Assembly (NCBI GenBank): GCA_956465555.1
Contig: OY101116.1
Coordinates: 2,852,001-2,916,000 of the forward strand
Origin: Nitzschia sp. pyKryTriq1
Taxonomy: Eukaryota; Bacillariophyta; Bacillariophyceae; Bacillariales; Bacillariaceae
Direction: 5' to 3'
DNA length: 64,000 nt
A program made the translations under genes and the position numbers. Each line of letters starts with the position of its first letter. Within the stretch, counting starts at the first letter, position 1. Of this stretch, positions 14,362-63,313 are shown piece after piece. The notes beneath the pieces are model-generated. The model searched no databases. It saw only the letters and a list, made by a program, of their open reading frames with translations, and was not told the DNA's origin.

Positions 14362-16201
14362 TCATGACTCCTGACTTTCTACTTCATCATCGCTTGCTTT
14401 CGACCAATCTTCTTCGTCCTCCTCCTCCTCCTCCCCCTCCTCATTATCATCATCATTTTCTGCTTCGCCTGCCGCAGCCTCCTCATCTTCCTCTGCTGCT
14501 TCTACTTCGCTTGTTTCGGCCTCCTCGTCTTCTTCTACTGCTTCCACTTCGCTTGCCTCGGCCTCCTCGGATTCTTCCTCGGGTTCGTCAGAGTCGTCGC
14601 CCTCATTGCTAGCAGAATCTTTGTCATTTGCCTCGGTTTCGTCCACAGCATCTGAGTCGTCGTTTACCTCGGTTTCGTCGATAGCCTCTGTTTCATCGTT
14701 CTCATCGTCATCATCTGATCCTTCAGAGGCACTGGACTCTTCGGAATCTTGCCCATCGTCTTCATTGGAATAACTGCCTTCAACATCTGATGCCGGTAAC
14801 ACCTGAGCATTCTTCTCCTCGTACCCTGCGCAAACGATAGATGAAAAATAGAAGTATCAGGAGACAATTACCGCAAAAGATCGCCAAGAGGACTCTCAAC
14901 GCCATGGGCGAATGCCTACCTGGAAATTTGAGTCCTGGTGGATTATCCCCAGAGAAGGTGATCGTCCCCTCTGGACTGCCAAACGAGAATTCGAGACCAA
15001 GTTCTCCATCCACTACGGTGACGTCCTTGATGCCCTTTAGCAGCTCGTGTACTCTAGATCCAGCTGGACATGAGACTGTAAGACCCTTCAACGATCCAAC
15101 TTGAGCAATAGAACCGATTGGATGTTCACACTCTCCCCAATCGACAAAATAAGGAACCACTCCTCCGTGAAAGTGGCCATGCATGAACAGCATCTCCCAT
15201 TTTCTCGGTGCACCATCAGGTCCTGCTCTGAACATAGCAATTCGATCTGGATCATACCCCAGCTCATTTGGAACATAGTCGTCAGCCAGGTCCGAGAGAT
15301 CAGTTTGTCGGATAGCGAAGTGGATTGGTACCAGGGAACCCTCTTCCAATTCCATTAACTGAGCTCCAATAGGGCCTGCTTTCTTTGGATCTGGTGTGAT
15401 GATCTCAATGAAGGCTTGGTTGTCGAGACCAACACGAGCCGTGAGTGTTCCAAGACCTTTCAAAGACCCTCCAGCTGAGGGTTTGATACCTGTCATCGCT
15501 TCAAATTCTTTCATCGCTTCATGGAAATCAGGTGCTGCCAGCACAATATGGTCTAAAGCGTTGTCTTCTAATCCGAGTTCCGTCTTTGTCATTCGTCTCA
15601 CTTCAAATCCTTCGCCTTCAGCGTTATCCTCATCATCGCTTGAAGACGAGCTGCTTGATGAATCTTCATCGCCGTCCTCGTCCCATTGTTGAAGAAGCTC
15701 CTTCATTTTGCGATCATCGGATGTCTCGCTTGCATTTCCGTCATCGTCGTCAACATAATCGATCGGGTCTAGAACCACAGGAGCCGGCGGCTTGATGGCT
15801 TCCGGCTCATTATCTTTACTTGAATCATCCTTTATTTTCTTCTTTTTTTCTTTTTTGTCCTTCTTGGTTTTTTCTTTTGACTTCTTTTTGGACTTCGATG
15901 GCGCATCGTGCTCGGTGCTCTGTTCTTTTGATTTTCCCTTCTTTTCTTTATCCTTGTCCTTGCTGCTCTTTTTCTTTTTCTTCTTATCTTTCTTCTCTGC
16001 TACGTCCTCTCCTCCGCCCTCTCCGGCGTCACCCTTGTCCTTTTCTTTTTTCTTCTTTTTCGTCTTCTTTTTCATCTTTTTCTTGGGTTTGTCGTCGCCA
16101 TCGCCTGCTTCGTCGCCAGCACCACCCGCTCCTTCTTCCTGCCGAACTTTGGCCATCAGAGCCTTCATTTGCTCATCGTCGGAGGATTCGTCATCCGACA
16201 T
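14362..16201 (-). CDS. Glyoxalase-like domain protein with Lys-rich and acidic extensions (paralogue 2)
   Basis: Two exons: 16201-14920 and 14825-14362 (intron 94 nt, GTAGGC donor, in frame); 581 aa. After MSDDESSDDEQMKALMAK there is a Lys/Asp block of about 100 residues (KPKKKMKKKTKKKKKEK and similar) resembling NLS/NoLS tracts. A second acidic segment follows, with the same DDRKMKELLQQWDEDGDED pattern as paralogue 1. The glyoxalase-like core begins with LDHIVLAAPDFHEAMKEFEA and contains YDPDRIAMFRAGPDG, WEMLFMHGHFHGG and LEFSFGSPEGTITFSG. The tail (about 150 aa) is mostly Glu/Asp/Ser with repeats of the types DETEVND and EAETSEVEAAEEDEE. Same domain order and intron site as paralogue 1, so a tandem duplication with expanded charged regions. 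Enzymatic role unknown. Confidence 0.75.
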
Positions 16202-37348: not shown

Positions 37349-40243
37349 CTATCTCGAGACGAAATCACGCACACCGAAGTCCGATTCTGATCGTTCCGCC
37401 TGGGCCATCAAATACTCAAATTCCTTTAGCCGAATAGGCTTACCGAGAGAAATATCGAAGCCGAATGGCAACTGAACCATCGATGTTGAGCCCACAACCG
37501 TGGACAAGCCACTGGCACTCAGAAGGACGATATTTCGCTGTCGATTCACTCGATTCTTCTCTTCCCACTCCCGGAATCTCGCAACACACTGCGAACACTG
37601 AAGGATCGGAAGATCTTCGTCCATCAGCACAAGATCCCAATTCCTCATCTTCATCAGGCGTAATACTTCTTCACCACTGTGTACAACCACAATCTTCCAA
37701 CCCCTTTTGGATGCAGTACTCTGAAGAGTGCCTATGTCCGTTTTTCCGTTTTCAATTCCTACCAAACAGAAATGGATAGACGAACCACTCCTCCTTTTCT
37801 TTGTTGTTTTATCGTCCGACGGTTCAGTCGGACTCGGAGCATCTTGTGCGTCATCCTCGAAAGATCCATCATCAGCTAAATCCTCTACCATGTCCACCAT
37901 CAGGGTTCCCTTAGCAGCAATTTCATCTAAAATCCCACCAACGACCTTCAATTCTTCGCTGATTTGAAGATCTACAAGCTGCTTGTAGGTCACTGGCTTT
38001 GGTCTAAAATCATCCATACCGGCTTCAACACCTTTTGCAATATCCTCTTCACCGGCATGGGCTGAGATACCAACAATGTACTGACGGAAGAATGGACGAT
38101 GGTTGGCTTCCCATTCACGATATTGCTGTACGCAATCGAGACCGTCCATGACCGGCATGAGAAAGTCACAAAGGACGACGTCAAAGAGAGAACACTGAAG
38201 TTCCTTTAGCCCTTCCATGCCGTCGACAGCCTGTGTCGTTTCAAAACCAAGCTTTGTCAGCACTCTTGTCAGACTCTTTCGCACGACCATAGAATCTTCG
38301 ATCACCAGAGCCTTTCGTTTCCGCGTCTCGTCATCGTCGAGTGGCACTGCCTCCTTCATCTTCTTAGGATCCGTACGTTGTCTGCGAGCACCGTTTTCCT
38401 CTGTTGAGGTTGAGGTTGAGCTCGAGGTTCCATGCGTTGAGCCAGTATCTATCGTGGCGTCCATTTTTTGTGGCACAAGATCCCCTTCGAGTACTTGGGT
38501 GAATGATTCATGAACCCGGCTCGCAATATCGTGGGAGAGCGTCGGAGTGCTCAAGACTTTCACTCCCGAGCCGCCAAATTGTAGGTCAAGGCTTCGTTCA
38601 GTGAATGCATCTGACACAGAAGTGGGGTATAATCCACCTGAGGCGCAAGTCTCGCTTGAACCAGGCACAACGAGGGGGATCTTGAACCAAAAGATAGAAC
38701 CCGTGACCGGTTTTTCGCTAGGCGAAGCCCCTTTCTCAGAAACTCGTGGGCGAAAACCATATTCTCCACCCAGTGAAGTAATATGAACAGCAACAGAGTA
38801 AAGTCCAAGACCAGGGTCTGGCGTGCTCATCGTAGACACCGCCTCAAAACCCCCATCGGCTCTTGGTTTCATGCAGCTGTTTGTAGCCTGATCTTCCGAT
38901 TGCTCTTCAACTGGTTTGAATAGATGCGGATATTGTTCTACAGGGACGCCGGGTCCCGTGTCCTCGCATTCAAACAGCAGTAGACTTCTTCCGTCTTGAG
39001 AAATGGGAGATATAGATAGTTGGACAGCCCCCGTTTCAGTTTTCGTACACGCATTTGTCAAGAAGTTCACCGCTGCACGAAATACCTTCAATTCGTCTGT
39101 CACGATCGTGTCCGGAGCCTGTGGGTGAACTGTAATGACGAGTGGGACTTTCTTCGGTAGAGGGTTGAGAACCATATAAAGTGTTTTCACCAACTTGGCA
39201 ATTGCTATCGGTGCATTCGCGTTCTTTTTTGGCACTCTGGGTGCTTTTGAATCTTGCACTTTGTTCTTGCGAAAAGATTCGATTGATGTCTGACATATTC
39301 TGCCCATCATATCGGTACAATTGGAAGCTGTGGTGATCATTTCTCGTTGCTGCGGTGTCAACCTTGCCGTGAAGTCTTCATCTTCACAAAGGAGGGATAG
39401 GCTCAGTTGAACACCAGTCAACGGCGTGAGCAAGTCATGCGCCGTATACGCAATCATTCTAGCTGGATTGTTCATCTCATCCATCTTGTTGTTTTTGTGA
39501 TCAACGCAAGATCGAACAGCAAGGGCTGCAAGCTCCATGAGATTCTGCTTTTCTTCGAGCGTGATCCCACCAGGGCGTGCCACTCGATCCAGGACGCACA
39601 GAGTGCCTAACTTGTAGCCCTCGGGTGAAATGAGTGGCGCGCCCGCATAAAAGCGAATATCTGGTGGGCCTGTCACCAGAGGATTCTCTCGAAAGCGGAA
39701 GTCTTTCGTGGCGTCGGGAACTATCAAGAAATCTTCTTTTGCCATGATTGCGTGTGCACAAAAGGCCATCTTTCTAGGAGTCTCCCTCGTATCTCCCAAT
39801 CCCCGATTGGACATGAACCACTGTCTTCCAACATCCACCAGACTGATCAGCGCCATCGGGCATTTAAAGATCCGACTTGCTAGACCAGTGACCCGTTCGA
39901 ATGCCTCTCTACGCTCGCTGTCAAGCAAAAGATAGGATTTCAAGACGAGCAATCTTTGAAGTTCATCGTCCAGCGATTGCGTCTCCGTTGTGGATTCCTC
40001 GTAGTTTTCTAAAACCCAGTCTAGCTTCGGGTCCAATTTCTGAGGTTGGTTTCCGGGGGCTTCTGGATCGCTGGGGGCGGATATGTTCTCGGATTGCCCC
40101 TCGTCGACTTCTGGTGATTTAAAGCTGATGTATTGCCCATCAATGTTCTTTGACCGTGTTAAAGTCATCGACTTCAGGGCTTGCGATAATTCTTCGGGAG
40201 AATCGAAGTCATTCACCGTTCGGTTTTCTCTATCGGCATTCAT
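37349..40243 (-). CDS. Hybrid histidine kinase: GAF, HisKA, HATPase, two receiver domains
   Basis: 964 aa, intronless, from ATG 40243; the frame upstream has no other ATG. There is no membrane segment, so it is probably a soluble sensor. GAF domain about residues 100-250 (RKMAFCAHAIMAKEDFLIV, RFYAGAPLISPEGYKLGTLC). Dimerisation/phosphoacceptor helix with AHDLLTPLTG (His near residue 270). ATPase domain with N-box NFLTNACTKTE (about 394), G1 box EDTGPGVP (about 428) and G2 box PGLGLYSVAVH (about 478). Receiver 1 (about 645-765) starts ALVIEDSMVVRK, has Asp in VVLCDFLMPVMDG and the Lys in RPKPV. Receiver 2 (about 820-955) has DLVLMDEDLP as the phospho-site region and ends with LGKPI. The GAF ligand is unknown; no phytochrome-type Cys is obvious. 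Confidence 0.9.
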   Translation of the reverse strand: MNADRENRTVNDFDSPEELSQALKSMTLTRSKNIDGQYISFKSPEVDEGQSENISAPSDPEAPGNQPQKLDPKLDWVLENYEESTTETQSLDDELQRLLVLKSYLLLDSERREAFERVTGLASRIFKCPMALISLVDVGRQWFMSNRGLGDTRETPRKMAFCAHAIMAKEDFLIVPDATKDFRFRENPLVTGPPDIRFYAGAPLISPEGYKLGTLCVLDRVARPGGITLEEKQNLMELAALAVRSCVDHKNNKMDEMNNPARMIAYTAHDLLTPLTGVQLSLSLLCEDEDFTARLTPQQREMITTASNCTDMMGRICQTSIESFRKNKVQDSKAPRVPKKNANAPIAIAKLVKTLYMVLNPLPKKVPLVITVHPQAPDTIVTDELKVFRAAVNFLTNACTKTETGAVQLSISPISQDGRSLLLFECEDTGPGVPVEQYPHLFKPVEEQSEDQATNSCMKPRADGGFEAVSTMSTPDPGLGLYSVAVHITSLGGEYGFRPRVSEKGASPSEKPVTGSIFWFKIPLVVPGSSETCASGGLYPTSVSDAFTERSLDLQFGGSGVKVLSTPTLSHDIASRVHESFTQVLEGDLVPQKMDATIDTGSTHGTSSSTSTSTEENGARRQRTDPKKMKEAVPLDDDETRKRKALVIEDSMVVRKSLTRVLTKLGFETTQAVDGMEGLKELQCSLFDVVLCDFLMPVMDGLDCVQQYREWEANHRPFFRQYIVGISAHAGEEDIAKGVEAGMDDFRPKPVTYKQLVDLQISEELKVVGGILDEIAAKGTLMVDMVEDLADDGSFEDDAQDAPSPTEPSDDKTTKKRRSGSSIHFCLVGIENGKTDIGTLQSTASKRGWKIVVVHSGEEVLRLMKMRNWDLVLMDEDLPILQCSQCVARFREWEEKNRVNRQRNIVLLSASGLSTVVGSTSMVQLPFGFDISLGKPIRLKEFEYLMAQAERSESDFGVRDFVSR

Positions 40244-41476
40244 TTTAGGTGTATTTCTGCCGGAAGCAAATCTTGATGTCAAGAAGAATATTATATGAGT
40301 TGTGTCGTCGCTAACGGAAGGAACCTTACTCGTAGTCTTGACCTTTGACTACAAGTACTTTTCAGCTTTGCTCCGATTCTGGCCGGAAGGTGCTCTTTGC
40401 TCTCTCGCGCTTGAATACCTTTGACACTACTTGTGGTCGTACCACTAGTAGAAGTGTTAGAAGACGACGAGTACTTTGTTGGTCCGTGACAAAATTCGCA
40501 CGCACCTGTACTGTACCGGTGCAGTGCGCCTTCTGTGTATTACAGTATGAATACCAGCGCATTACCGGGGTATGGATACGTACAGTACCGGTAGAGCGGG
40601 AGCGAGCGGTCGCTGGAACGAGCGGCGAGCGAGGGGCAAGGCACAACAATTATTACCGTACCGGTACTGGTAGGCACAACCCCGCCACACACACAGACGG
40701 TATACAAGTACCAGTCTTTGTGGCGAGGCTCTGTACCTGTACGGTTAAAAACGGTATGCCAAGCTGCAATGAAGAACGGTGTCACGGACGGACGCGGTCT
40801 TACGCGTGTACCGTAGAGAGAATTCCTGTACAATGATAGAGTACTACTACTCTCTAGTCTCTCTCTCTACTAGAGAGAGGCCAATAAGTCCCTCTCTAGC
40901 TACTACGAGTAGTGAGTACGAGTTCGGTGTGGATGTTTCTAACAAGAAAGGACGGGAAAAACATTCTTGTGAGACTCCGTAAAACTCCATTTTATTTCTA
41001 GGCCAGGAGAAATGCCTCCGAACGAGAACTGTTCTTTGTGGGTGCGGAGTTAGCCAGAAGTATCATATTATGATTTTAAAGTACAGTATTCGGACTTTTG
41101 TCCATACAAATGGTTGAACTTGACTTCATTTCCATCGAAAGTCTTGCACCTCTGTCAGCAATATGCGAATTGTTGCGGTGAAATAGTACCATACCAAGGA
41201 AAGCCAACGACACATCAGAAATCAAAAGTCTCGTTTTATAGATCGGTAGCTATCATAATTTCCACCAAGGCAAGGGAATAACATTACCTCTAGCTAGTTC
41301 GAATTATTCAGTGCAAGCTGTGTTGTAATTTGGACCTGTAGCTAGATTACATGGATTATCTATGAGTTCTCGTTCAAGTGCCCAAGAGGACAAAAGCATC
41401 TTCCGATGCACAAACAGTAGTTCAAGAGGGGAGGTTTGAGATTCCTAAAAGAGGGATTCAGGAGTGGCTAAGACGT
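40244..41476. other. Intergenic region
   Basis: No supported gene. TACCGGTAC motifs at about 40515, 40590 and 40660, and CT/GA-rich tracts near 40855-40900. Long frames over 40345-40836 are repeat-driven. Confidence 0.55.
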
Positions 41477-48592: not shown

Positions 48593-49927
48593 CTATGGAA
48601 CTGCGTTTGGCTGTTCGTCTTCGTTTTCTCCAGTACCTACCACGTTTACATCAACGGGATCGTCAATACATCGTTCAAGTCTATCAGACTCATCTTCACA
48701 GCTCGTTCGCCGGCCTTCGATTTTGTTTCCAGGGAAATAGTGTGCACTGTCCGAAGCATTTGTACTGGATCTCTCTCCCTCTCTACTAGCAGCAGCAGCA
48801 GCTGTCGAATTATTTCTGCTGCTACGACGAATCCACCGAAATATGTTCGCACTCCTTTGAGTACCACTGGTTCTACTAGTCTGCGACAAAGATGGCCGCG
48901 AAAAACCGGCATCTGAGGTCGGCGGCGCCCTGCACCGGATTGTCGCCTGAAAAGCTTCCATAATATCTGGGTTTGTCAGACAAAAGACAGCAGTCACAAT
49001 GCCTTGACAATGAGATATCAACGCCCCAGCCCACTTCACCCAAACACTGAGCTGAACAAAGTTTCCCACCAGGCTTACAACAAGGAATGGAAACCAAATG
49101 GTAAAATATAAAGCGATCATCCGTAGCAGAAATAGGCTCAGATTCCGTCGACGTCCGAGTGGAGGTAGCAGATTTCTTCTCCATATGTCAATCATCACAT
49201 AGAAAAAATAACATATTGGTATGACCAATATGGCTGGTAGAAAGACCAAATAATAGAAAATCGTGCTTGCCTTGTCGACCTCCATGGCGAAACACGCAAA
49301 GCCATTGCCGGCATGGGTTTCGAGAGGTATTGCAGGGATATTGAAGGCGCCAATAAAAGCCCAAAACGTGGCATACACATACACCACCGCTCCATGTATC
49401 CGAACTTGTCGATGAGTTGGTGGTATATAATGCTTCCGTATTCTGGAGAACCGCAGAAGCTTGTGAACTTGGTAGATTACCATTGAATTCATCCAGCCAT
49501 TGGCAGCAAAGGCCCAGCACAAGTAGAAAGCTTGAAAGCCACACATGGCCTCTGAATAATATTCGGACATGGGGGCCGACATTGCACATGTGATTGCGCA
49601 TAAGAAGCTTGCGAGGAAATCTGGAATGACTATGAGTAGCACGTATATGTTGAAAGGGTTGGCTGTGACCTTGGATGATCTTGCCATTGATACAATCAAC
49701 AGGGCACACACCAGCGAGGTACATGCGTTGACCGCAGCAAGGATTGCAAATTGTAGGTGAAGCGTTTGCTCTGACGGCCAAGCTCTTGCAAAGGTGTAAC
49801 GTGTAGAAGTCTCGTTGAGTTGCCAAACGTACAGCGTTGGATCATCAAGTCTCGGTGGCGAGAATAATAATCTTGACGAAGCTGCTAGTAGGTGTTCTCC
49901 AGCAGCCGCGATCTTTTCCGTGGACAT
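48593..49927 (-). CDS. Seven-transmembrane receptor-like protein (GPCR-type)
   Basis: 444 aa from ATG 49927; the frame is open further upstream but without ATG. Seven hydrophobic segments in order: LQFAILAAVNACTSLVCALL; VLLIVIPDFLASFLCAIT; FQAFYLCWAFAANGWMNSM; AVVYVYATFWAFIGAFNI; FYYLVFLPAILVIPICYFF; LRMIALYFTIWFPFLVVSL; and ALISHCQGIVTAVFCLTNP. A Cys at the start of helix 3 (MCGF) and one in the second outer loop (GFACFAM) could form the usual disulphide. NPDIM at the end of helix 7 resembles NPxxY. The C-tail (about 130 aa) is basic, then Ser-rich and acidic, suitable for phosphorylation. Topology fits a class A/cAMP-receptor-like GPCR of protists. No DRY motif is seen after helix 3, so coupling to G proteins is unproven. 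Confidence 0.7.
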   Translation of the reverse strand: MSTEKIAAAGEHLLAASSRLLFSPPRLDDPTLYVWQLNETSTRYTFARAWPSEQTLHLQFAILAAVNACTSLVCALLIVSMARSSKVTANPFNIYVLLIVIPDFLASFLCAITCAMSAPMSEYYSEAMCGFQAFYLCWAFAANGWMNSMVIYQVHKLLRFSRIRKHYIPPTHRQVRIHGAVVYVYATFWAFIGAFNIPAIPLETHAGNGFACFAMEVDKASTIFYYLVFLPAILVIPICYFFYVMIDIWRRNLLPPLGRRRNLSLFLLRMIALYFTIWFPFLVVSLVGNFVQLSVWVKWAGALISHCQGIVTAVFCLTNPDIMEAFQATIRCRAPPTSDAGFSRPSLSQTSRTSGTQRSANIFRWIRRSSRNNSTAAAAASREGERSSTNASDSAHYFPGNKIEGRRTSCEDESDRLERCIDDPVDVNVVGTGENEDEQPNAVP

Positions 49928-50214
49928 GACGCTGGTGGTGATGATGATGTTTACTTGTATAGTGCTAGTACTATGTTCGTCGAGCCACAGGTATTTTGCG
50001 CTGGGATCGATTTCAGTGATATTCAATTTCTGAAAGTCAAAGAGGACAATACCGTTAATGATAATGCAATGGAGTGGATCCAAAGTACGGGAGGTATGCC
50101 CCCAACCGATACTTCGGATGGAAAAAGAGTGGTGGACGGAGTAAGAGTGTGGAGTGAAGCAAAATCAATCTTGCCTTTTTTCTTGTTGTGGTGGTTTGTG
50201 GTCGGTCTTTACCG

Positions 50215-50613: not shown

Positions 50614-50766
50614 TTGGAATTCCAAATTCCATTTTGGAATTCCATTTTGGAAATTGGAACTCAAATTTCCATTTTGGAATTCCAAAATGGAAATTGGAAT
50701 TCCAAATTCCATTTTGGAATTCCATTTTGGAAATTGGAATTCCATTTTCCATTTTGGAATTCCAAG
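50614..50766. repeat. Tandem array of nested GGAATTCC palindromes (80-bp period)
   Basis: A unit starting TTGGAATTCCAAATTCCATT at 50614 recurs with the same following sequence at 50694 (period 80 bp), with a partial third start near 50734. Each unit is itself made of alternating direct and inverted copies of CCATTTTGGAATTCC and TGGAAATTGGAATTCC, so the whole block can pair with itself in many registers. Confidence 0.9.
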
Positions 50767-52057: not shown

Positions 52058-53806
52058 ATGAAGCTCCTACAAAATCTTTTGCTGTCATGCTTGACGCTGG
52101 GCATGGTGGTGGTATCGGCGCATAGTACTCGTAGTTCGGTTCGAGAGGAATTTGTCGCCAGAATGGACGCCGCCACAACCAAGAGGAAAAGGGATTCTCG
52201 TGTAACGGCAAAGTTGATGGAGTTGGCAACCCCCCTTGATGCTCCTCCTCGTTTCATGGAAGAATACCAAGATTTTGCAATCAACATCACTGAGTATGCT
52301 CTCCGATATATCGGATGCCAGAACGTTCATCAATATTCTGACAATCTGGCCCAGGACGAAGACTCGGAGACTGTTCTGGGGATGAACCGCTTTGTGATTG
52401 TCCGCCTCTGCCCCAAAGACGAATGCTCCAACTACCATCACTATGGGTGCAACACTGGTTTTGGCGACTATCTCATTCGAATGGAAGATTATTTGGAGAC
52501 GATGGCGGCTGATTTTTTCTCGGAGTACCAAGAATATTGTGAGACGTGCTACTACTGCATGAAAAAGTCGTCAGGGCAGCAGCAACAACAACAAGGAGAC
52601 GACGCGGCGGGTGACGATGCGGCGGCAGCAGCAGGGGACGATGCAAACGCAAATGCCAATGCCAATGCTGGAGACGACGCGGCAGGTGATGACGCGGCAG
52701 CAGGAGACGATGCAAATGCCAACAATGGTGGACGTCTGTTGGAACAAACCGACGATTACTATTACAAGGGCGCCGACTTTTACAATGATATGGGCGACGA
52801 TGCAGCTGGAAACAATAATCAAAACGATGACTGCGCAAACTACTACGACGCTTGCAGTGATTTCCGAACCGCCTGCAAGGACTACTCGCAGTATGCCACT
52901 GACATGGAGAGTTACTTCCAGTGCTCGGAATTCCAAGTCGGCGACAATGTCGGCTACCTCGGGCCTCATTGCAGAAGCGACGGAAAAACTATTGGTATTG
53001 GACTCTACAAAGATGAATACTGCAATGAGTACAACTCTGACATGCTCGACCTAGGATCTATGCTGGGCATCGAAGTGAGCGATGAGCACCTCAAGGCCTA
53101 CTACTCGGAGCAATGCATCTCCTGTTTGGCATCGGTAAGTTCGCAGCAATATCATGGCTGAGGCACAGGCACTGTTGTGTATCACATCTAGCATATCTAA
53201 CTTCAATATCATTTCTTCGGTCACTCCTATGTTCGAAGGAGGGTTACGATTTGGATCAAGGCGAAGACGGAGTGGTAACAACCATCTGCGGGGAACTCTA
53301 TGGAATGAGTGCGAAATGCAATAGGTACATGGGAAACGAGGCAGATTATGCGGTAAGTTTATCGTAGACTACCATGATCCTGTGCAGTACAAAGGAAAGA
53401 ATGCGGCAATCCTCTTACACCCCCTCCCCTTCAGTCCTATGTCCAAGAAGAAAACGAGCAAGATGTTTGTACATTCATTTCCAACTTGATCACAAACAGC
53501 TACGACGAGTACGGCCACATCTATTTGGAACACGACCCATGGCAAGTATTCAACGATATTATGGCTACAACTAAATTCCAAAAATACGTCCTTTCGTTTT
53601 CGGTCTTTTTGGTTGCGGGACTACTGGGCTACGCTTGGTACTTGCACCGGAAAATAAGCAGATCCAAGTACGCTTGGCACCCCAAGGGGCGACGTTCTCA
53701 CCGCAACGGTCAACCCAGTATGATGGAACGGATGCATTCCGGAATCATCCAAGGTAGATCGCGAAGTGGAGGCCCTGATCTCCAGGGAGGAGCTGTATTC
53801 GCATAG
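52058..53806 (+). CDS. Cysteine-rich single-pass membrane protein with low-complexity D/A/N region (family member A)
   Basis: Three exons: 52058-53134, 53239-53352, 53435-53806 (introns 104 and 82 nt, all phase 0); 520 aa. Signal peptide (MKLLQNLLLSCLTLGMVVVSA). First Cys domain: RYIGCQNVHQY, FVIVRLCPKDECSNYHHYGCN, GDYLIRMEDYLE, YCETCYYC. Then a low-complexity block of GDDAA and NANANA repeats and an RLL (RXL) site in GGRLLEQ. Second Cys domain: CANYYDACSDF, YLGPHCRSDGKTIGIGLYKDE, EQCISC. Exons 2-3 add GVVTTICGELYGMSAKCNRYM and CTFISNLITNSYDEYG, one membrane helix (VLSFSVFLVAGLLGYAWYL), and a basic tail with HSGIIQGRSRSGG. It shares domain order, Cys spacing and tail motif with the genes at 57775 and 61145. 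Layout recalls diatom cell-wall/silica-vesicle membrane proteins; function not known. Confidence 0.8.
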
Positions 53807-54158
53807 ATCATGATGTTAATGATTCAGTCATTCATCCATTCACCACCACGATCGCTGGCGGCAACCACGGCGACATCATGATCATGCTCACGGACCTTGT
53901 AATACTACTATCATCGTCGAATGATTCAAATTCAATAGCACAGTATTCATTTTCTTACTCACGTACATCGCTAGATTACGGCCAATACACTCTAGGCGTG
54001 TTTCTCGTTCTATAATCATATACTACTATACGGGGACTACACGCTGTACAGTATCAAGAACGAGGGCGACGAAACTTGTTCATTAATAACAGCAGTAGGA
54101 GCGGCACATGGTGTGATAGTAATGTGCTGTGCTGTGCTGTGTGCTGTACTGGTAGTAG
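53807..54158. other. Intergenic region
   Basis: Between family member A and the copia LTR. Contains a GTGCTGTGCTGTGCTGTGTGCTGT run near 54124-54147. No gene seen. Confidence 0.6.
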
Positions 54159-55012
54159 TGTCAACTGACTCTGAAATCAATCTAATACAATATAAAATTG
54201 ATAGAATGAAAAGAGTGAGCTATTTGATATTATTGTTGTTGATTGGAATGTGGTTGAGAAGCTTTTCGGTTGAGAAGCTTTTTGAATTGAGAAGCTTTTT
54301 GTATGTTACGAGTGAGAAGCTTTTGTTCGAGTTGGTTCGAGTGAGTGAAGTGAAGTGAGTCGTGTGAGTCGCGTGTAGAATTCGTTTGACACCTTCCCCT
54401 GATCATCGATTCCAGGGATGATCATAAGCGAGAAAACGAATGTTAGTTGTAGTGTCCCATGAGGCGACGAGAGTGGCGAGTGTGAAGGACCCAGCCGAGA
54501 GGTTTTGTGAGGTCATCGGAGGGATTAATGATACCAGGAATGTACCGCATAACAATGTGTCCAGAGTCTTTCCAATCTTGGATGGCAAAGAATTGAATAA
54601 GAATGTGGCGAGAACGGTCGGTAGGGACGCGAGCATTGATCATTTTGATGGCACTTTGATTATCGCAGTAAATGGGGGTGGGTGTGGTTTGTGGGAAGCC
54701 GAGTTCGGTGAGGATGGAACGGAGGTAACGGGCGTGTTTGGCAGCGCTGACGGCGGCATAAAACTCTGCTTTGGTAGAACTTGTAGCGGTGGTTGATTGA
54801 GTCTTGCACTTATAGGAGACACAGCCACCAGCGAGGGCACTTTTTCGCTGCTTTACGATAGTAGTATAGTGGCTGGGATAGTATACTAGGAGTGAGGATG
54901 TCGTCCTCGTGGGCCCCCCTTCTTGTTGGAACATCATCGCAAGCCCGTCTAGATACTTGTTGACTACTCCTGCTGGTGACAAATGAGTTTTTAAACTACT
55001 AGAACTCAGCAC
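54159..55012 (-). mobile_element. Ty1/copia 3' fragment: truncated RNase H, polypurine tract and LTR
   Basis: On the minus strand 55012-54443 encodes the C-terminal part of copia RNase H: KCKTQSTTATSSTKAEFYAA (catalytic Glu), IYCDNQSAIKMI (catalytic Asp), RSRHI, and the ending NPSDDLTKPL...RRLMGHY. The first RNase H Asp segment and everything 5' (gag, integrase, RT) are missing. After the stop there is AGGGGAAGG (polypurine tract) directly followed by a candidate LTR whose ends are TGTCAA and TTGACA (54391-54159, 233 bp). The LTR holds four copies of a GAGAAGCTTTT unit (54255-54325). This is a 5'-truncated element. Confidence 0.8.
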
Positions 55013-55534
55013 ACCATGTAGTAGTAGTAGTGCTAATGGTCGTCGTCCTCGTCGTAGTAGCTAATAGTAACATTAAGAAGGACTTGTCCTCGTTCGATAG
55101 CTAGTAGTACTAGTAGTAGTACTATTACCAGTACTCTACTACTACTCGTCAAGGTAGGAGTAACTAAATTCGACAGTGCACTTTTTCGCTGCCTTACGAT
55201 ATAGTACTCTAGTAGAGTATCTGTCCCCCCCCCCCCCCCGGACTCCTACCCCAAGAGGTACGGGTACAGTAATATGGCAAGCCCTTGGGTGTATGGGCCT
55301 ATGCGCGTGTGCGCTGATTCTTCCATATTTGAGCAAATACCAGAAGGACAGACGGTGTTTCAGCTCAGTTTTCTCCCGGCTCGCGAGCGGAGCTCTCCAC
55401 TGAGGGGGCTCCTTCTCGCTTCGGTCTGCCCGCCCATCCTCCCTTTGGAAGAAAGATACTATCAGTAGCTCAGTGATACTGTACAGTATTGGCAATGGCG
55501 TCATTTACCACTCGCCGTGCCTCCCGAGACTTTT
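55013..55534. other. Gene-free spacer with poly-C tract
   Basis: Between the copia fragment and the TIR element. Has CTAGTAG-type repeats, a 15-nt C run (55225-55239), and a 25-bp near-repeat of 54837-54861 (GCACTTTTTCGCTGC..TTACGATA) at 55178. No gene supported. Confidence 0.6.
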
Positions 55535-56223
55535 GAGTCTATGTTGGACAGATCGCGCGGTGGGTACCCCCCCGGATGGCCGGCTCGGAAACAATATATT
55601 ATATCCATATTCGAATTTATATATAACGGAGAGGTCTCTTCAGAATAGTTCGTATGTTGAGGCGATATCTTGCCAAATTCTGCACATGCATCGACCGCGT
55701 CGACGATCGACAATGATACAATACAACAAACATAACCTGACGGGGTAAGCTTCAGTATTTCATAGTTGACTTGGTGAAAGAATGTGTATCTTGCGAAAAC
55801 ACTAACCAGTTCGATGTTTGCAGGTACGACTTGAGGATGAGATGCAGAGAGAGCACCGAAAATATGACGCAATTGGTGGGTGGAAACGCATTTGCGACGT
55901 GCCAAAGTGTTTCTGATCGCTCGCATCTGCAAATGAGACGTCTGGAGCCTTTTCAACTTTGACAAACTGCAAATGCCATACAACAGAGGTACGTCGCGTA
56001 CTATAGTGCCATCCCCGTTGTCAAGTACTATGTCTCTCACGCCGCTCGCTCCTTTTGTTCTTGTAGCTTGTTGTTTTCCAGAAGACTCCGGTCGTTCTAG
56101 ACGGGACAGAAGTTCCGTCGGAACAAGGGCCCGTTCTGTCCGGACAAAGGAGACCACATCAAAAGGGAATTGCCACTCCGGATGGTTCTGTTTGAAGTCT
56201 CGGTGGAAGAGATCTACCCATCC
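55501..56223 (-). pseudogene. In-frame downstream ORF of the TIR element (after TAA)
   Basis: This frame continues directly, in the same phase, from the TAA at 56226-56224 that ends the ORF above it. It starts GWVDLFHRDFKQNHPEWQFP and stays open for 240 codons without an ATG in its first part. The last codons run through the left TIR and past the element's edge, so the extreme C-terminus is not meaningful. Either the TAA is a disabling mutation, it is read through, or an intron removes it. No family recognised. Confidence 0.4.
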
Positions 56224-56856
56224 TTAAAAGTCGGTCGGCGCAGAGGAGGAGTCGTCGGGAGATGGGGACACCGTCGCTTGTTTGCTGGATGGTTCTTTAT
56301 TTGGTATTGGCGTCGCATCAGGACATGGCTTCTTGTCGCCAGTAGTCGCCTGTGCATTTCGTTTCCTTTTGAGAAGTTTCTTTGATGATGATTCTTGCTC
56401 GGTGTTGTCGTTCTGGGAATTCGAAGGCTTCTTTGTTGCGAGCGGCTCCCGTTTCAGGTGGCGACGGCTCGGACGATCTGGGTTGTCCCAGATCGCCTGC
56501 CAAAATGCTGTATCGCTCGGGATGTCGGGCGGGGAAGTGGTCCTCGTGAAGTAGTAGAATCGAATGGTCTTGCCTTTGGAACCAACTTGTATCTTGTTGC
56601 GCGCCCGAACGATCTTCACTTTTGTCTCAGGAATAGAGTAGGCATCTTCAACGAAGTCAAGCTTTTTGCCAATAGCTTTAGAAAATATAGACATCGATAG
56701 TTGGTCTTTAGTACCACCAGTACTATTTTCTCGCAGATAGCGGCAGCAATCTTCGTCAACATGCCATTGTCCTTGTATGTCAGCGTCCTGGGCCGCCAAC
56801 AAGAATGCGGCGCACGCGTCGTCTAGCGACCATGCCTTGTTATTGGTCGATTTCAT
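56224..56856 (-). CDS. ORF of unknown function in the TIR element
   Basis: 210 aa from ATG 56856 (MKSTNNKAWSLDDACAAFLL). The N-terminal 120 residues look globular (helical start, then a mixed region with FYYFTRTTSPPDIPSDTAFW). The C-terminal 90 are charged and disordered with a basic KKLLKRKRNAQ tract that could be an NLS. It ends at TAA 56224, immediately followed in frame by another long open stretch. It is the only candidate protein of the element. I do not recognise a transposase or DNA-binding family. Confidence 0.45.
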   Translation of the reverse strand: MKSTNNKAWSLDDACAAFLLAAQDADIQGQWHVDEDCCRYLRENSTGGTKDQLSMSIFSKAIGKKLDFVEDAYSIPETKVKIVRARNKIQVGSKGKTIRFYYFTRTTSPPDIPSDTAFWQAIWDNPDRPSRRHLKREPLATKKPSNSQNDNTEQESSSKKLLKRKRNAQATTGDKKPCPDATPIPNKEPSSKQATVSPSPDDSSSAPTDF

Positions 56857-56869
56857 CACACACAGCAGC

Positions 56870-56944
56870 CAGTGTCTAAACTCCTTTTGCAGGAGTGCTC
56901 CTATGGTTATGATGAAGGAGCACCTCGAATTAGTTTAGACACTG
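56870..56944. repeat. 75-bp hairpin inside the TIR element
   Basis: CAGTGTCTAAACT (56870-56882) pairs exactly with AGTTTAGACACTG (56932-56944). A second, inner pair GTGCTCCT/AGGAGCAC (56895-56902 and 56916-56923) extends the stem. AGC flanks both sides. It may be a nested miniature element or a 5'-UTR structure for the ORF at 56856. Confidence 0.8.
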
Positions 56945-57182
56945 AGCCTTATTGATGAAGTAGTGTTGACAAAGCTACTGAAAGAGAGATGGAGGGAGGT
57001 TTGTTTTGTTCTTCGATGATGGCATCGTCGCGAGCAATGATCATTGTTCGTGAGTGAATCACTAGTGAATGCGCCTGCCAGCTGCCTCAAGAAATTTGGG
57101 CGCGCAGATTTTATATTTATATACGTGTCTGAAGTAAAATCAATGTTGGGTACCCACCGCGCGATCTGTCCAACATAGAGTC

Positions 57183-57774
57183 TGGATCCCGTTGGCCGTA
57201 TGGTAGGCAGGGTGGTACCGGTACTCGTACCGGTAGGTATTTACCCTTGCGTAGGGATAGCATAGAAAGAGTCGAATCAGTCGTTGTTCTCGTCTAATTT
57301 TTTGTTTAAATAAATCTAAATAAATAAGAGAGCGACGTCCGGCTCGCCATTGTGAGAAGAATTGGGCATATGCAGAACCGTTGAACTTGAAGAAATTAGT
57401 ACCAAAGCTACGCTATCCTACGAAGATACATTTCAGCGGCGCCGAAATTATGATTACATAGCAGAGATTCTCTATGACACGAGTTCAATTCCCATAACAG
57501 TATATTCAGTAATGAATACATATAAACCGAATGCGACATGTCCAATGCACGGGCAGTCTCCAGATCGCTCATAGTATTCAATCCCATCGCGCGCCTGCCT
57601 CACTATAAATAGGGGATACTAAGCGATCTCATCGCCAACTTCCACAATTTGAATTGGGGACACCGGCGTGGCGACCGCCGGCATCAAGCCGATAGATCCT
57701 TGAGTTCATAATTTCCTTCGTATCACATCCTCACGGTGGTTCAGAACATTATAAAAGGAATCATCATCATCACC
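57183..57774. promoter_or_regulatory. Upstream region of family member B with TATA-like box
   Basis: CTATAAATAGG at 57603-57613 is a good TATA-box match about 165 bp before ATG 57775. A GTACCGGTACTCGTACCGGTAGG cluster lies near 57214-57237. A 70-codon open frame (57362-57574) has no ATG at its start and no known relative. Confidence 0.4.
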
Positions 57775-59842
57775 ATGAAGCTCTCCATCGGTGCCTTCAC
57801 CCTCTCCATGCTCCTCGGAGCCAGTGCTCATATGGATGACATCCGAGCCAAGCGTCGTTTGACCAAGTCCTTCATGGAAGCCATGAAGGAGCCCACCATC
57901 GCTGCTGCGCGCAAAAAGGGACAGGCCCAGAAGCTTCGCAAGCTCCACGAGAACCTCGCCAAGGCCTCCCGAGACCTGTCGTCCTACAGCAGCTACTACC
58001 AGAACGGTAATGCCAACGCCAACCAGAACGCCAACCAAAACGCCAACAACGGTAACAACTACTACGCACAGTACGGCCAGGAGAACGGTGTTTACACCGG
58101 GTACTACCAGAACGGAGTTTACTACCCTTGGGAAGAAGCTCCTTTCGACATGACCTCGCGTGCTTTCAAGTACTCTGGTTGCGCTGCCATCAAGACCTAC
58201 GATTCGGACCGTGGCTACAGCAACGGAAACCCCATGGTCATGGACACCTACGCTGTCTTCCGTCTGTGCCCCGCCGACAAGTGCAACGACTACTCCATGA
58301 CTGGATGCTCCAAGAACTACGGAGAGTACGCCGTCGAGATGAAGACCTACTTGGCTTACATCCTTGACTACTATGATGACCGCTTCGAAGAGTACTGCGA
58401 CTACTGTGAGCCCTGTGATTGGGAGTACCAAGCCACCGTGAAGACGGACTTGAGCACTTGCTACTCCAACCAAGCTAAATACGCGTACCAGTACTCGATA
58501 GACAGTGGAAACACTGCCCAGTACAGTCAAAACCAGCAACAACAACAAAACTCCAACGGTTGGAGCTGGAGCTGGGGTGGCAACAAGAACAACAACGCCA
58601 ACAGCGCCAGTTCTAGTTCTAGTTCCGGCAACGTAGCCTCCTCCAGCAGCGGCTACAACTACCAGCAGTACTACAGCAAGAACAACGGAAACCGTGAGTT
58701 GGAGAACAACAACCAGTACGACAACCAGGCACAAGGAACCTACGGATACTACGACCCCAATACCGGCGAGTGGGTTGAAACCGAAGATGCTGAGACGGCT
58801 GAATACGGAGAGGGATATGCTAACTACAAGCCCGGACAGACCGAAACCTGTGCTGATGGTTCTACCTGCGACGTCTGTAGCTACAAGATGGAACAGATGT
58901 ACAGTTACTGTGATTCCTATACTTGCGGTGACTACTACACCTTCTGCTCTGATTTGTACGGAGAACAAGATGATGACTTCGACCCCATGGACTACCTCGA
59001 GTGCCAAGGTTACGTCAACGAAATGGGCCAGCAATACTACATTGGTCCTCACTGCGGTTCCGATCACTACACCATTTCCCTTGGAGTCTTCAGTGATGAA
59101 AACTGCCTCAAGTACATGGGAGACGATATTTCTCTTGCCTCTGTTCTCGGTTACACCTACTCCGACCAAGACATCTTCAAGCTTCCCAAGCAGTGCATCT
59201 CGTGCGATGGCTCTGTGACAAGTGATGGAGAGGTGAGTCTTACTTTTGCTCTTCTCCTTTTGTTCTTGCCTTCACCTGTCGCTCACCATTTTGATTCGTC
59301 TTTTTCCTTCACAGTTGCAATATGAAGAATACAACCAGAACCAACAGGGTGTCTACGGAGATTACGTTTCTTCTCCCGAAAGTACCCAGGATGGTGTCGT
59401 CGCTATGTGCCTTGCCCTTTACTCTGGAAGTGCTCAGTGCAACATGAACATGAACAACTTTGAACAAATCTCTCGTTACATGAGCCAATACGAACTTGAC
59501 CAAGAATCCCGTTACTGCGCCTTCATCGAGAACATCATCTTTGGTGCTTACGACGAAAGTGGAGAGATCTTATTGAGGCCTGAACAATTCAACTTCAATG
59601 ACTGGAAGAACCCTCATCAGTACAAGAAGTTGAAGATGCCTGTTAGCCAAGCCGTCGGTCTTGCCTTCAGCATCGTCCTTTGCGTTGCTCTCTTGGCCGT
59701 TGCTGCTGTCACCAACCGTTCGCTCACCCGTGACTCAACTCCCTGGAAGCCTTCGCGTGCCGATATGGCCCTTGCTCGACAAAACTCGGGCATCCTTATG
59801 GGACGTTCCCGCTCTGGACCGGGTGCCGCTCCTCTTATCTAA
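57775..59842 (+). CDS. Cysteine-rich single-pass membrane protein, N/Q/S/Y-rich (family member B)
   Basis: Two exons: 57775-59232 and 59315-59842 (intron 82 nt, phase 0); 661 aa. ATG 57775 has context CACCATGAAG. Signal peptide (MKLSIGAFTLSMLLGASA), then DDIRAKRRL (RXL at residues 27-29) and a helical segment. An N/Y-rich spacer leads to Cys domain 1: AFKYSGCAAIKTYDSDRGYS, VFRLCPADKCNDYSMTGCS, YCDYCEPCDW. A long low-complexity block follows (SQNQQQQQNSNGWSWSWGGN, poly-Ser, Y/Q) with a second RXL in NRELE. Cys domain 2: CDVCSYKMEQMYSYCDSYTC, YIGPHCGSDHYTISLGVFSD, QCISC. Exon 2: ALYSGSAQCNMNMNNFEQIS, RYCAFIENII, PEQFNFNDWKNP, a membrane helix (AFSIVLCVALLAVAAV) and a tail with NSGILMGRSRSGPG. 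Strong codon bias compared with member A suggests high expression. Confidence 0.85.
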
Positions 59843-61144
59843 ATAATTGAATATTCGATGCGTCTGTCGCATCTGTTGGAATATTTTTGATGAGAGAGTG
59901 TCGCTTGGACACTTTGTGAACTTATATATATATGATGATGAACTAGGAAGAAAGTTGTAAATTTCGTACAATACTAATGATAATATAAAACAACATTGCA
60001 TTGTTTTCTCTTTTTCATCGTTTGAACATCTTCTTCGTCTCTCTTTATCTTCTATCATCATGCACGATATGTTGTACCGGTATTGTCTTCTCATACCTTT
60101 TAATAACGGTATCCATCTCGACTGGACCGACCTACTGTACCAGTGCTGTATGTTGTTGCTTGGTGCTCCTGGTTCACACTATCGTCGATTTAAACGAATG
60201 AGGAGATGATCTTTCTTCATCGTCAGAAAGGTACCGGTAGGCGCATCACTTCTACCAGTACTACTACTACTCCGACGTTCTGTACTATCTTTACCAAGAC
60301 ACTAATACTCGAGGGTAAAGTATGTCAACAGCAAGCAAGTATATACGGTACATCATGACTACCCGGAGCGCTTGCCTAATTTTCATTTCCCCTTCCCTAC
60401 TGTATACCCAAATGGTGTGGCATCCCGCAGTGTGCGAGTATGCACTCATATGAGGATGATAATATTATAATTAATGATACTTTACTACTTCCTGTACCCT
60501 CTGTCGCGTCGCAGTCACTGGCATGTCGATGATGATGATTCATCGATGATATCCTCTCAACTAGTACCGTACCGGTACTGTACCGGTAGAGAGTAGAGTG
60601 ACGACATCCTCCTTTGTCCTTCTCACCGACCGCACGATGCTTGCAGTTGAAAAAGTGATTGCCCATAGGCCGACAGGCTCGACCTGGTACTGTATTATTG
60701 ACTACTGATAAGAGCAGTACGTACTTGTACGACACCCAGTACCAGTACTAGTACCGGTACCTGCTGGCAAGCTGTCGTGCTGGCGCTAGCTGTCTGTACC
60801 GGTACCTGTACAGTACCTACAGTACGGTATTCCAAAGGCGTGGCATGATTTGTCTGTGAAAAGAGCTTGTCGCCAAAAACAACACTTTCGGAAATAGCGA
60901 TGTTATTTACTTCATTCTTGTATATCATCAAAACTGATTAGCGTTAAAATAGCGTTTCATATCTGGAATACTTAAAAACCGACTGTTGTGACCGCCTTGG
61001 AAGCGTCCGGTGACCCCTTGCCTTCACATTATTCGACGATCGCCAACTCGAGACTGAGGACCGAAAATTCGAATTACTTGTACCGGAGAGAAAGCGAACA
61101 AGCCAACTTGTCCTCATTGGCAACTATTGTTTCGCCTATCGACC
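59843..61144. other. Intergenic region between family members B and C
   Basis: 1.3 kb without a gene; dense TACCGGTAC clusters at 60565-60595 and 60725-60830, and AT-rich stretches near 59910-60000. No TATA box as clear as that of member B. Confidence 0.55.
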
Positions 61145-63313
61145 ATGAAATTCTCTTTGCTTGCTCTTCCGGCCTTTGTCGCCGGAGCCACGGCAAACTT
61201 GGATGAGATTCGTGCTAAGCGCCGTCTCAACCAGGAGTTCATGCGAGCCATGACCTCCGATCCTCGGATCTCGGAAGTGCAAAAGAAAAAACGCGCCCAG
61301 AAGGTCCGAAAGCTCCACGAAGACCTCATTAAGGCCTCTCGTAAGTTGAGTAGTAGCCAGTATTCTGAGTACCAGCAACAAGCCTACAGCGATCAACAAC
61401 AATACTATCAACAGCAACAACAGTACCAGCAAGATGGTCAATACCAGTACCAACAACAGTACCAGCAAGACGATCAGTACCAGTACCAACAAAATGGCCA
61501 GGGAAACCAATACCAGCAAAATGCCCAGGGAAACCAGTACCAGTACCAGGAAGGCCAAACTTACTCTGATCAGGGTACCTGGAACGGAGAATACTGGGAA
61601 TTTAACGGTGAAATCCCCTTCGATCTATCGTCCCGCGCTTTCAAGTACTCTGGTTGCGCGGCCATCAAGACATACGATTCGGACCGTGCTTACAGTAACG
61701 GAAACCCCATGGTCATGGACACTTACGCCACCTTTCGTCTCTGTCCTGCCGACAAGTGCAACGACTACTCCATGACTGGATGCGGGAAGAACTACGGAGA
61801 GTATGCCATCGAAATGAAGACCTATTTGTCTTATGTCCTCGGATTCTACGACGGACGCTTCCAAGATTACTGCAACTACTGCGAGCCCTGCGATTACGAG
61901 TACGAGGCCTTGGCCAAGACCGCTCTCCAACAGTGTTACGCTGATCTCGAGCAAACGACCTACGCGAATGCTCAGAAACAGCAACAACAGGCCTGGCAGG
62001 AGTACTACAACGCAAATAATGGTGACATGTCTGGCTGGAATGTGAATGGAGATGGAAACTTCCAGAATTATAATAATTACTACAATCAGGCCCATAACTA
62101 TGACGGCTACTACAACATTGGTGGAAGCAATGGTGCTTACGGCTCGGGTGCAAATCAATATGGTGGAAGCTATAAGAACTACAACGGAAACTACCGGAAT
62201 GGCTATGGCAACCGAGATCTCGGCAATGGATACAGTAACTATGGAGGGTACTGGGGATCTGATGGCACTTATCACGAAAGCAACGACGACCAATACACCG
62301 GCATAAAATATTCGAAGTGCTTGGATGGATCTCTCTGCGACGAATGCGAGTACCAAAACGAGCTGGAATACCTCTGGTGTGATGACTATACCTGCGGTGA
62401 CTACTACAAGTACTGTTCTGAATTGTACGGTGGTGAACAGAACGACTTCGATGTTTCCCAGTTCTTGGAGTGTGCGGAATATGTAGACGAATACGACCGA
62501 ACGTACTATATCGGGCCCCACTGTGGATCTGATCATTTCACTATTTCCTTGGGTGTGTTCAGCGATGAGAATTGTGTGGACTACATTGGAGAAGATATGT
62601 CTGTTGCCGCTGTCCTTGGTTCGAACTACAAAGACGCAGACATGTTCGGTCTCCCTAAAGAGTGTATCTCGTGTGACGCAGCGGTAAGTCAGCAGCAGCT
62701 TTGCACCAAATCCAAAGTATCAGTTTTTCTCATTCAGTTTCTCACCGTTTGATTGTTTGATTTTTTGCATTTTTTGCAGGAGGCGTACGAGAACACCGTA
62801 AGCAGTGGCGAAGGACGATACGGTGACTACGTTACTGCACCCGAAACGGACCAAGAGGGAACAGTCGCCGTGTGCCGTGCTCTTTACTCCGGAAGTGCTC
62901 AGTGCAACATGAACATGAATAATTTTGAACAAATCTCTCGATACATGAGTACCTATGAGATTGATCTTGAGAAACGCTACTGTGCTTTCATTGCGAACAT
63001 TATCGACGGTAATTACGACGAGAACGGAGATATCCTTTTGAAGCCTGAGCAATTCAACTTTGCTGACTGGAAAAACCCTCGGCAGTACAAGAAGTTGAGA
63101 ATGCCTGCCGACCAAGCCATCTACCTGTCATTGAGTATCATTGCGTTCATCGCAACTGCCGCGATGGCCGTCTTCGCTCACCGATCGATAAGACGAAGCG
63201 CCAGCCCGTGGCGACCGAAGCGAGGGAGCCCGGAAGAACATATTGCCCGAAAGAATTCAGGTATCGGCTTTGCCCGATCACAAAGTGGACCTGGTAACGC
63301 CCCACTCATCTAA
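61145..63313 (+). CDS. Cysteine-rich single-pass membrane protein, Q/Y- and N/Y/G-rich (family member C)
   Basis: Two exons: 61145-62683 and 62780-63313 (intron 96 nt, phase 0, same position as in member B); 690 aa. Signal peptide (MKFSLLALPAFVAGATA), then DEIRAKRRLNQEF with RXL at residues 26-28. A Q/Y block of about 90 residues follows (repeats of the type YQYQQQYQQD). Cys domain 1 is nearly identical to that of member B (AFKYSGCAAIKTYDSDRAYS; FRLCPADKCNDYSMTGCG; YCNYCEPCDY). The second spacer is N/Y/G-rich rather than Ser-rich and carries RXL in NRDLG. Cys domain 2 has CDECEYQNELEYLWCDDYTC, YIGPHCGSDHFTISLGVFSD and ECISC. Exon 2 shares ALYSGSAQCNMNMNNFEQIS, PEQFNFADWKNP, a membrane helix (YLSLSIIAFIATAAMAVF) and the tail NSGIGFARSQSGPGNAPLI. 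Confidence 0.85.

Follow-up and report, generated by a model that had tools for sequence, protein, structure and literature searches.

A 64,000-nucleotide window of the diatom Nitzschia sp. pyKryTriq1 (contig OY101116.1, positions 2,852,001 to 2,916,000) carries three tandem plus-strand genes, denoted A, B and C, which span 52058-63313 from the ATG of A (52058) to the end of the stop codon of C (63313). Judged by sequence, they are members of the published SiMat7-like/silicanin family and not a new family; nor are they strict silicanins, because the GGQKFAL motif is missing and the tails are longer and basic. We consider it probable (roughly 0.7) that they encode tandem silicanin (SiMat7-like) type I paralogues residing in the membrane of the silica deposition vesicle, with a luminal Cys-rich head, drifting linkers and a probable second cut at an internal Arg-X-Leu (RXL) site. 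The vesicle location and a role in the silica matrix are proposed by analogy with silicanin-1 and other biosilica proteins.

Gene models and shared architecture

The exon structures of A, B and C are models from sequence, without transcripts. All four introns are GT-AG and each lies between codons, and the encoded proteins have 520 amino acids (aa) with 19 Cys (A), 661 aa with 23 Cys (B) and 690 aa with 22 Cys (C). Each protein contains a signal-peptide-like N-terminus, a first Cys block (V/FRLCP), a spacer with an RXL, a second Cys block (GPHC-[RG]-SD, then CISC), one membrane helix and a tail, much as an earlier note on this DNA had described; the "third Cys pair" of that note is a third block holding three conserved cysteines rather than two. 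Signal peptides were judged by eye, with N-terminal hydropathy (19-residue means) of 1.88 in A, 1.11 in B and 1.32 in C followed by VSA/ASA/ATA. The single C-terminal helix reaches Kyte-Doolittle maxima of 1.84 (A), 2.83 (B) and 2.25 (C). An additional RXL lies upstream of Cys block 1 in B (RDL) and C (RKL).

Gene A
52058..53134, plus: exon 1; signal peptide, pro-region, Cys blocks 1 and 2; frame matched by the family profile, which includes this same sequence
52250..52258, plus: degenerate N-terminal RXL position, RFM, residue 65
52283..52558, plus: Cys block 1 (VRLCP, GC, CxxCxxC)
52733..52741, plus: internal RXL, RLL, in the D/A/N spacer
52847..53134, plus: Cys block 2 (GPHCRSD ... CISC)
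53239..53352, plus: exon 2; first part of Cys block 3; GT-AG, phase 0; sequence-only model
53435..53806, plus: exon 3; remainder of Cys block 3, membrane helix, cytosolic tail, stop
53588..53644, plus: membrane helix, Kyte-Doolittle 1.84 over 19 residues
53645..53803, plus: predicted cytosolic tail, 53 aa, basic, SGIIQGRSRSGGP
Gene B
57775..59232, plus: exon 1
57970..57978, plus: N-terminal RXL, RDL
58147..58416, plus: Cys block 1 (FRLCP)
58693..58701, plus: internal RXL, REL, in the spacer
58840..59205, plus: Cys block 2 (GPHCGSD, CISC) with an extra Cys-rich insert, also in C and the contig-13 copy
59315..59842, plus: exon 2; Cys block 3, membrane helix, tail, stop
59654..59710, plus: membrane helix, Kyte-Doolittle 2.83
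59711..59839, plus: predicted cytosolic tail, 43 aa, NSGILMGRSRSGPG
Gene C
61145..62683, plus: exon 1
61340..61348, plus: N-terminal RXL, RKL
61622..61891, plus: Cys block 1 (FRLCP)
62213..62221, plus: internal RXL, RDL, in the spacer
62309..62674, plus: Cys block 2 (GPHCGSD, CISC)
62780..63313, plus: exon 2; Cys block 3, membrane helix, tail, stop
63119..63175, plus: membrane helix, Kyte-Doolittle 2.25
63176..63310, plus: predicted cytosolic tail, 45 aa, NSGIGFARSQSGPG

A 14-member family profile, run against six-frame pieces of the window of at least 25 aa, matched five frames, all from A, B and C; these matches included neither the small exon 2 of A nor exon 2 of C.

Kinship with silicanin-1

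A search of the genome (40.65 Mb, 20 contigs) with a GGQKFA DNA pattern returned two matches, against one for the reversed control. One of the two, L017, is a 430-aa frame with 18 Cys, GGQKFAL, RAL at residue 45, a membrane helix and a 20-aa tail; the other (L018) has no family-like frame among the listed frames of at least 150 aa. The published description gives silicanin-1 a length of 426 aa, 18 Cys, a 20-aa tail and an RXL that follows the signal peptide by 30 residues, and GGQKFAL is reported to be perfectly conserved across silicanins (PMC5525289). Because its marks agree with this description, we take L017 to be the silicanin-1 orthologue, as judged by length, RXL, 18 Cys, tail and GGQKFAL and not by the Thalassiosira pseudonana sequence.

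Exon 1 of A and L017 find each other reciprocally at E-values of 1.3e-19 (A as query) and 6.8e-19 (L017 as query). The first frame of B (query 57772-59274) matches L017 at 6.7e-11, and B exon 2, searched by itself, matches the C-terminal part of L017 at 5.6e-4. With L017 as query, A is found at 6.8e-19, B at 7.7e-7 and C at 6.2e-6 (E-values for one genome). The kinship with silicanins that the earlier note had suspected from a general resemblance is thus borne out at the level of the Cys blocks, whose failure to align with silicanins or other silica-vesicle proteins it had named, together with constitutive expression and a non-wall location, as grounds for abandoning the idea; we regard its silicanin reading as partly supported.

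Published definitions place these proteins within the broad family. The Parmales study counts as homologues proteins above 300 aa with BLASTP E<1e-5 to Sin1 (silicanin-1); with L017 as query all three genes fall under this E-value at lengths of 520-690 aa, in a comparison made against the local orthologue instead of T. pseudonana Sin1 and without BLASTP. For the strict definition of E < 1e-50 to Sin1 (Kotzsch 2017), the best value here, obtained exon by exon against the local orthologue, is 1.3e-19. Of the 18 cysteines of L017, A shares 15, B 16 and C 16, short of the full 18 of a strict silicanin. The broad SiMat7-like/silicanin family is defined by eight conserved cysteines; our 14-model alignment has 10 cysteine columns invariant in 14/14 and two more in 13/14 (the exception in one of these two columns is L039, whose first exon is missing), an agreement with the published eight by count. 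Six cysteine columns that L017 lacks precede Cys block 2 in B, C and L021, the contig-13 copy; A has Cys in three of these and L024 in two.

Chance likeness among low-complexity proteins rich in Cys, N, Q and Y, with no kinship, is hardly credible. Such composition can inflate scores, but the reciprocal matches cover the folded blocks and recur for the separate C-terminal exon, the cysteine positions are shared, and an intron position is common to the clade described below; on these grounds the explanation was ruled out.

General databases returned little. Four of the six pieces of A, B and C searched against Pfam had no family and two gave E 0.09-0.18 only. Across the 14 models, five Pfam and four NCBIfam families appeared, each in one member (best E 0.0041 and 0.0022), and are not credible. 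A search of PDB sequences with the family profile gave no matches up to E 1. A genome-wide GPHC DNA pattern was uninformative (96 forward and 99 reverse matches, against 71 and 81 for controls).

In overall plan, A, B and C resemble silicanin-1 (Sin1/SiMat7) of T. pseudonana in type I topology by hydropathy, a signal peptide, an N-terminal RXL (B and C), an N/Q-rich luminal region and 15-16 of the 18 orthologue cysteines. Unlike silicanin-1, they lack GGQKFAL and have longer spacers, tails of 43-53 aa and total lengths of 520-690 aa (20 and 426 aa in silicanin-1), with extra cysteines in B and C. They share with the SiMat7-like family (Brembu et al. 2017), for which four subfamilies have been published, the signal peptide, conserved cysteines, C-terminal membrane helix and multigene organization, and in B and C also the RXL after the signal peptide, where A has RFM.

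Family members in the genome

Combined searches identified at least 17 distinct family loci.

Contig C1: 2023539, 2021239, 1438100
Contig C2: 1368333, 2904058, 2909772, 2913142, 3371457, 3490312, 4077234, 4080041, 4082203
Other contigs: C3:2504410, C6:1580136, C10:1061095, C11:648551, C13:1315922

With L017 as query, 11 family genes, L017 included, are recovered at E 1e-5 or better. Reported counts of silicanin homologues are 4-13 in diatoms and 0-2 in parmaleans (PMC10328945), so that the 11 genes agree with a diatom and not with a parmalean; 15 SiMat7-like members are reported in T. pseudonana and 10 in Phaeodactylum tricornutum (Brembu et al. 2017, PMC5501833). The family is thus already known, and its size here is unremarkable.

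We aligned 14 models (A, B, C, L017, L021, L024, L029, L030, L031, L032, L033, L039, L048 and L068), excluding the incomplete L043, L049 and L062. In the resulting tree, built with one guessed junction residue, L017, L031, A, L024, B, C and L021 fall on one side (support 95/94). Within this group A, L024, B, C and L021 form a subclade (98/94) in which B, C and L021 are closest (100/100); the remaining order is weak, with B and C joined against L021 at just 68/68 and L024 on a long branch. All five subclade members have an intron 3 residues (9 in B) after CISC (CVDC in L024). Unlike A, B and C, the local silicanin-1 orthologue lacks it: L017, L029-L033, L039, L048 and L068 read through this place in one frame. 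An apparent break is seen in L043 too, at a greater distance downstream of its CxxC.

PF03842, the silicon-transporter family, is present at eight loci in the genome; seven of them score 873-885 bits and the eighth 451 bits. One of 14 control genomes gave a signal, below the cut-off. From these loci the host alga most likely silicifies.

L017 (C1:2023539-2024828, plus) lies head-to-head with L032 (C1:2021239-2022447, minus), about 1.1 kb apart, and the gap is possibly a shared promoter region. A second local trio, L033, L048 and L068 (C2:4077234-4082865), forms one clade (100/99) with short spacers and without internal RXL. Minus-strand open frames run antisense to B (57706-59271, 521 aa), C (61625-62719, 364 aa) and L017 (369 aa), probably as a by-product of codon usage.

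Conserved blocks and drifting spacers

B and C are 84% (76/90), 61% (75/122) and 78% (73/94) identical in Cys blocks 1, 2 and 3, so that calling their folded blocks almost identical, as the earlier note did, overstated the case. Its companion claim of completely different spacers is right for three low-complexity stretches, which align at shuffle level: the one preceding Cys block 1 (z -0.3; observed score reached by 324 of 500 shuffles) and those on either side of the internal RXL (z 0.1 and 218 of 500 ahead of the motif, z -0.1 and 265 of 500 behind it). The claim fails for the wider spacer including the helical end after Cys block 1, where 43/119 residues (36%) are identical (z 5.0). Between the unalignable spacer halves, N-R-[ED]-L is kept in both B and C. 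Ser is the commonest residue in the spacer core of B, which has a Ser-run, and not in the cores of A or C. The tree path from A to B or C is 2.7-2.8, against 0.48 between B and C.

In Cys block 1 (B 58147-58416, C 61622-61891), conserved residues of B and C use identical codons at 51/72 positions, against 145/280 elsewhere (Fisher P 0.005, one of several looks), a weak lead toward gene conversion. Positive selection on the spacers is not claimed, because dS is at least 1.3 or saturated outside Cys block 1.

An internal RXL within the luminal head

Exactly one RXL occurs between the Cys block 1 helix and the GPxC strand in 10 of the 14 models, where shuffles of the region give 1.05 expected (P 9e-12). 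Without A, B and C, the proteins that first drew attention to the motif, it occurs in 7/11 against 0.90 expected (P 1.4e-7); both P values are too small, as paralogues are not independent. None of thirteen other R-x-residue patterns is comparable; they turn up in between 0 and 3 of the 14 models, with some above expectation (RXI, 1 vs 0.2; RXR, 2 vs 0.6) and others below (RXN, 0 vs 2.5; RXQ, 0 vs 2.1).

The motif precedes the column of L017 C211 in A, B, C, L017, L021 and L024 (the column is not Cys in L024) and follows it in L029, L031, L032 and L039; no model has both positions. Internal RXL is absent from L030, L033, L048 and L068, which have short spacers, and the incomplete L049 carries RRL. 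The two positions and the lost alignment around the motif argue against mere inheritance. Its retention in unalignable spacers, at two alternative places, suggests a second proteolytic cut in the luminal head, which is proposed in the present analysis alone.

Related sites are on record in other biosilica proteins. Among diatom biosilica proteins RXL counts as an endoprotease signal, within precursors too; in those of silaffin-1, silacidin, cingulin and frustulin, RXL-type sites are reported internally as well, there at repeat ends (PMC4557024). Unlike A, B and C, the silaffins, cingulins and silacidins are described as having no more than one cysteine (PMC5525289). Two or late RXL motifs have been reported in other frustule proteins (PMC9650480), and a TpSAP3 fragment seems to fit cleavage at a C-terminal RXL (PMC5647440).

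Weighing the vesicle reading

Several observations weigh against silicanin-like vesicle proteins with a second cut. Two alignments put identity to L017 at a low 28-36%, the exact GGQKFAL, a motif of the luminal/membrane border, occurs in L017 only among the 14 aligned models (at that place A has FQKYVL, B SQAVGL and C DQAIYL), and the tails of A, B and C have 43-53 aa against 20 in L017. At the N-terminal RXL position A has only RFM. Structure models are middling (L017, mean pLDDT 61.2 and pTM 0.57; A exon 1, mean pLDDT 62.3 and pTM 0.52), and none of 156 Foldseek matches to the L017 model has E <= 0.001. Two of the three incomplete models, L043 and L062, have N-rich inserts without RXL (by eye), and T. 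pseudonana Sin1 is reported as a single 55-kDa membrane band (PMC5525289), so that no mid-protein cut is visible in that member.

The order of elements is alike in the L017 and A exon 1 models (two long strands, a strand, a long helix, a poorly predicted spacer, a helix and strands), which were built from alignments of nearly the same 14 sequences and so are not independent evidence. To our knowledge, the silaffin-1, silacidin, cingulin and frustulin precursors lack a membrane helix.

The tails of A, B and C carry net charges of +9, +5 and +7, against +1 in L017, and share the motif SGI--[GA]RS[RQ]SG. By a crude measure, tails are also long in L021 (120 aa) and L024 (68 aa) and, outside the clade, in L033 (41 aa), L068 (50 aa) and L030 (61 aa). 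RSxSxP fits the tails of B and C, not those of A or L021, and we take it to be a 14-3-3-like pattern.

A, B and C might have left the silica vesicle to become cell-surface or plasma-membrane proteins (in adhesion, girdle glue or sensing) that keep the Cys-rich head and use the linkers for display. Loss of GGQKFAL, longer basic tails, the extra cysteines of B, C and the contig-13 copy, and fast linker change between paralogues would all fit such a move. We consider it unlikely, since the RXL sites are kept, a motif said as of 2017 to be known only from biosilica-associated proteins (PMC5647440), and since expression of family members in two diatoms is reported to follow silicon supply or cell division (PMC5501833).

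The type I topology, the Ser-run in B and the cytosolic segment common to A, B and C also recall the silicalemma-associated proteins (SAP) TpSAP1-3, which are described with the same topology, a conserved cytosolic segment and, in TpSAP3, a fragment that seems to fit RXL cleavage near the C-terminus. Compared by description only, SAPs differ from A, B and C in being defined by a serine-rich luminal region and their own conserved 28-aa cytosolic domain. Membership in that group is very improbable: the luminal parts here are Cys-rich and silicanin-homologous, the spacer is Ser-rich in B only of the three, and in the main text of the SAP paper the word cysteine occurs 0 times (PMC5647440).

A proposed model for A, B and C

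Silicanin-1 is reported to lie in the vesicle membrane, with its luminal part remaining in the silica, and its recombinant luminal domain to cluster and, together with polyamines, to promote silica formation (PMC5525289). Signal peptide, RXL and membrane helix are common to SiMat7-like proteins, ten of which are reported to peak in T. pseudonana 2 h after Si addition (PMC5501833). Among membrane proteins of the silica vesicle, silicanin-1 is one of few with a knockout phenotype, reduced silica content and wall strength (PMC6599040).

As silica-vesicle paralogues, A, B and C would enter the secretory pathway, where B and C may lose an N-terminal pro-region at RXL. The three-block Cys-rich head would then face the lumen of the silica deposition vesicle and the short basic tail the cytosol, where it could serve in signalling or tethering, a role suggested in this analysis only. 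The freely drifting linkers, rich in N, Q, Y, S, G and D, could form a self-assembling, polyamine-compatible surface within the vesicle. Cleavage at the linker RXL is probable and would leave a head in two parts, of which the one farther from the membrane can stay in the silica. By analogy with Sin1, the head may cluster in response to pH and act together with long-chain polyamines, remaining in the silica after removal of the tail.

A more specific scheme takes silicanin-family proteins as two-cut precursors: in addition to the known N-terminal RXL, an internal RXL maintained by selection in unalignable linkers, on one side or the other of a conserved cysteine, would split the luminal head, with the distal part released into the silica or left there and the proximal part staying at the membrane; in the A/B/C clade, which has lost GGQKFAL, this cut would replace the membrane-proximal one, and the new basic, phosphorylatable tails (RSxSxP in B and C) would couple the vesicle to cytosolic machinery. 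Taken as a whole, we hold this scheme to be doubtful. The internal RXL predicts a two-chain head and offers an alternative to GGQKFAL as the release step. The cluster also provides paralogues in which conserved heads are set apart from free linkers, natural material for asking which part does the silica-forming work.

Other features of the window

Between A and B, an ORF on the minus strand (54443-55060) without a Pfam match up to E 0.001 reads like what we take to be the RNase H end of a copia-type retroelement. A minus-strand ORF at 48593-50083 has several hydrophobic segments and is seven-helix-receptor-like by eye, with no Pfam match up to E 0.001. A tandem repeat at 50614-50765 has a 40/80-bp unit (1.9 copies of 80 bp, 95% matches). 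Two adjoining minus-strand ORFs (12757-13686 and 14783-16201) with Glyoxalase_3 (PF13468) are apparently tandem paralogues, and the minus-strand ORF at 37352-40282 encodes a hybrid histidine kinase (GAF, HisKA, HATPase and response regulator).

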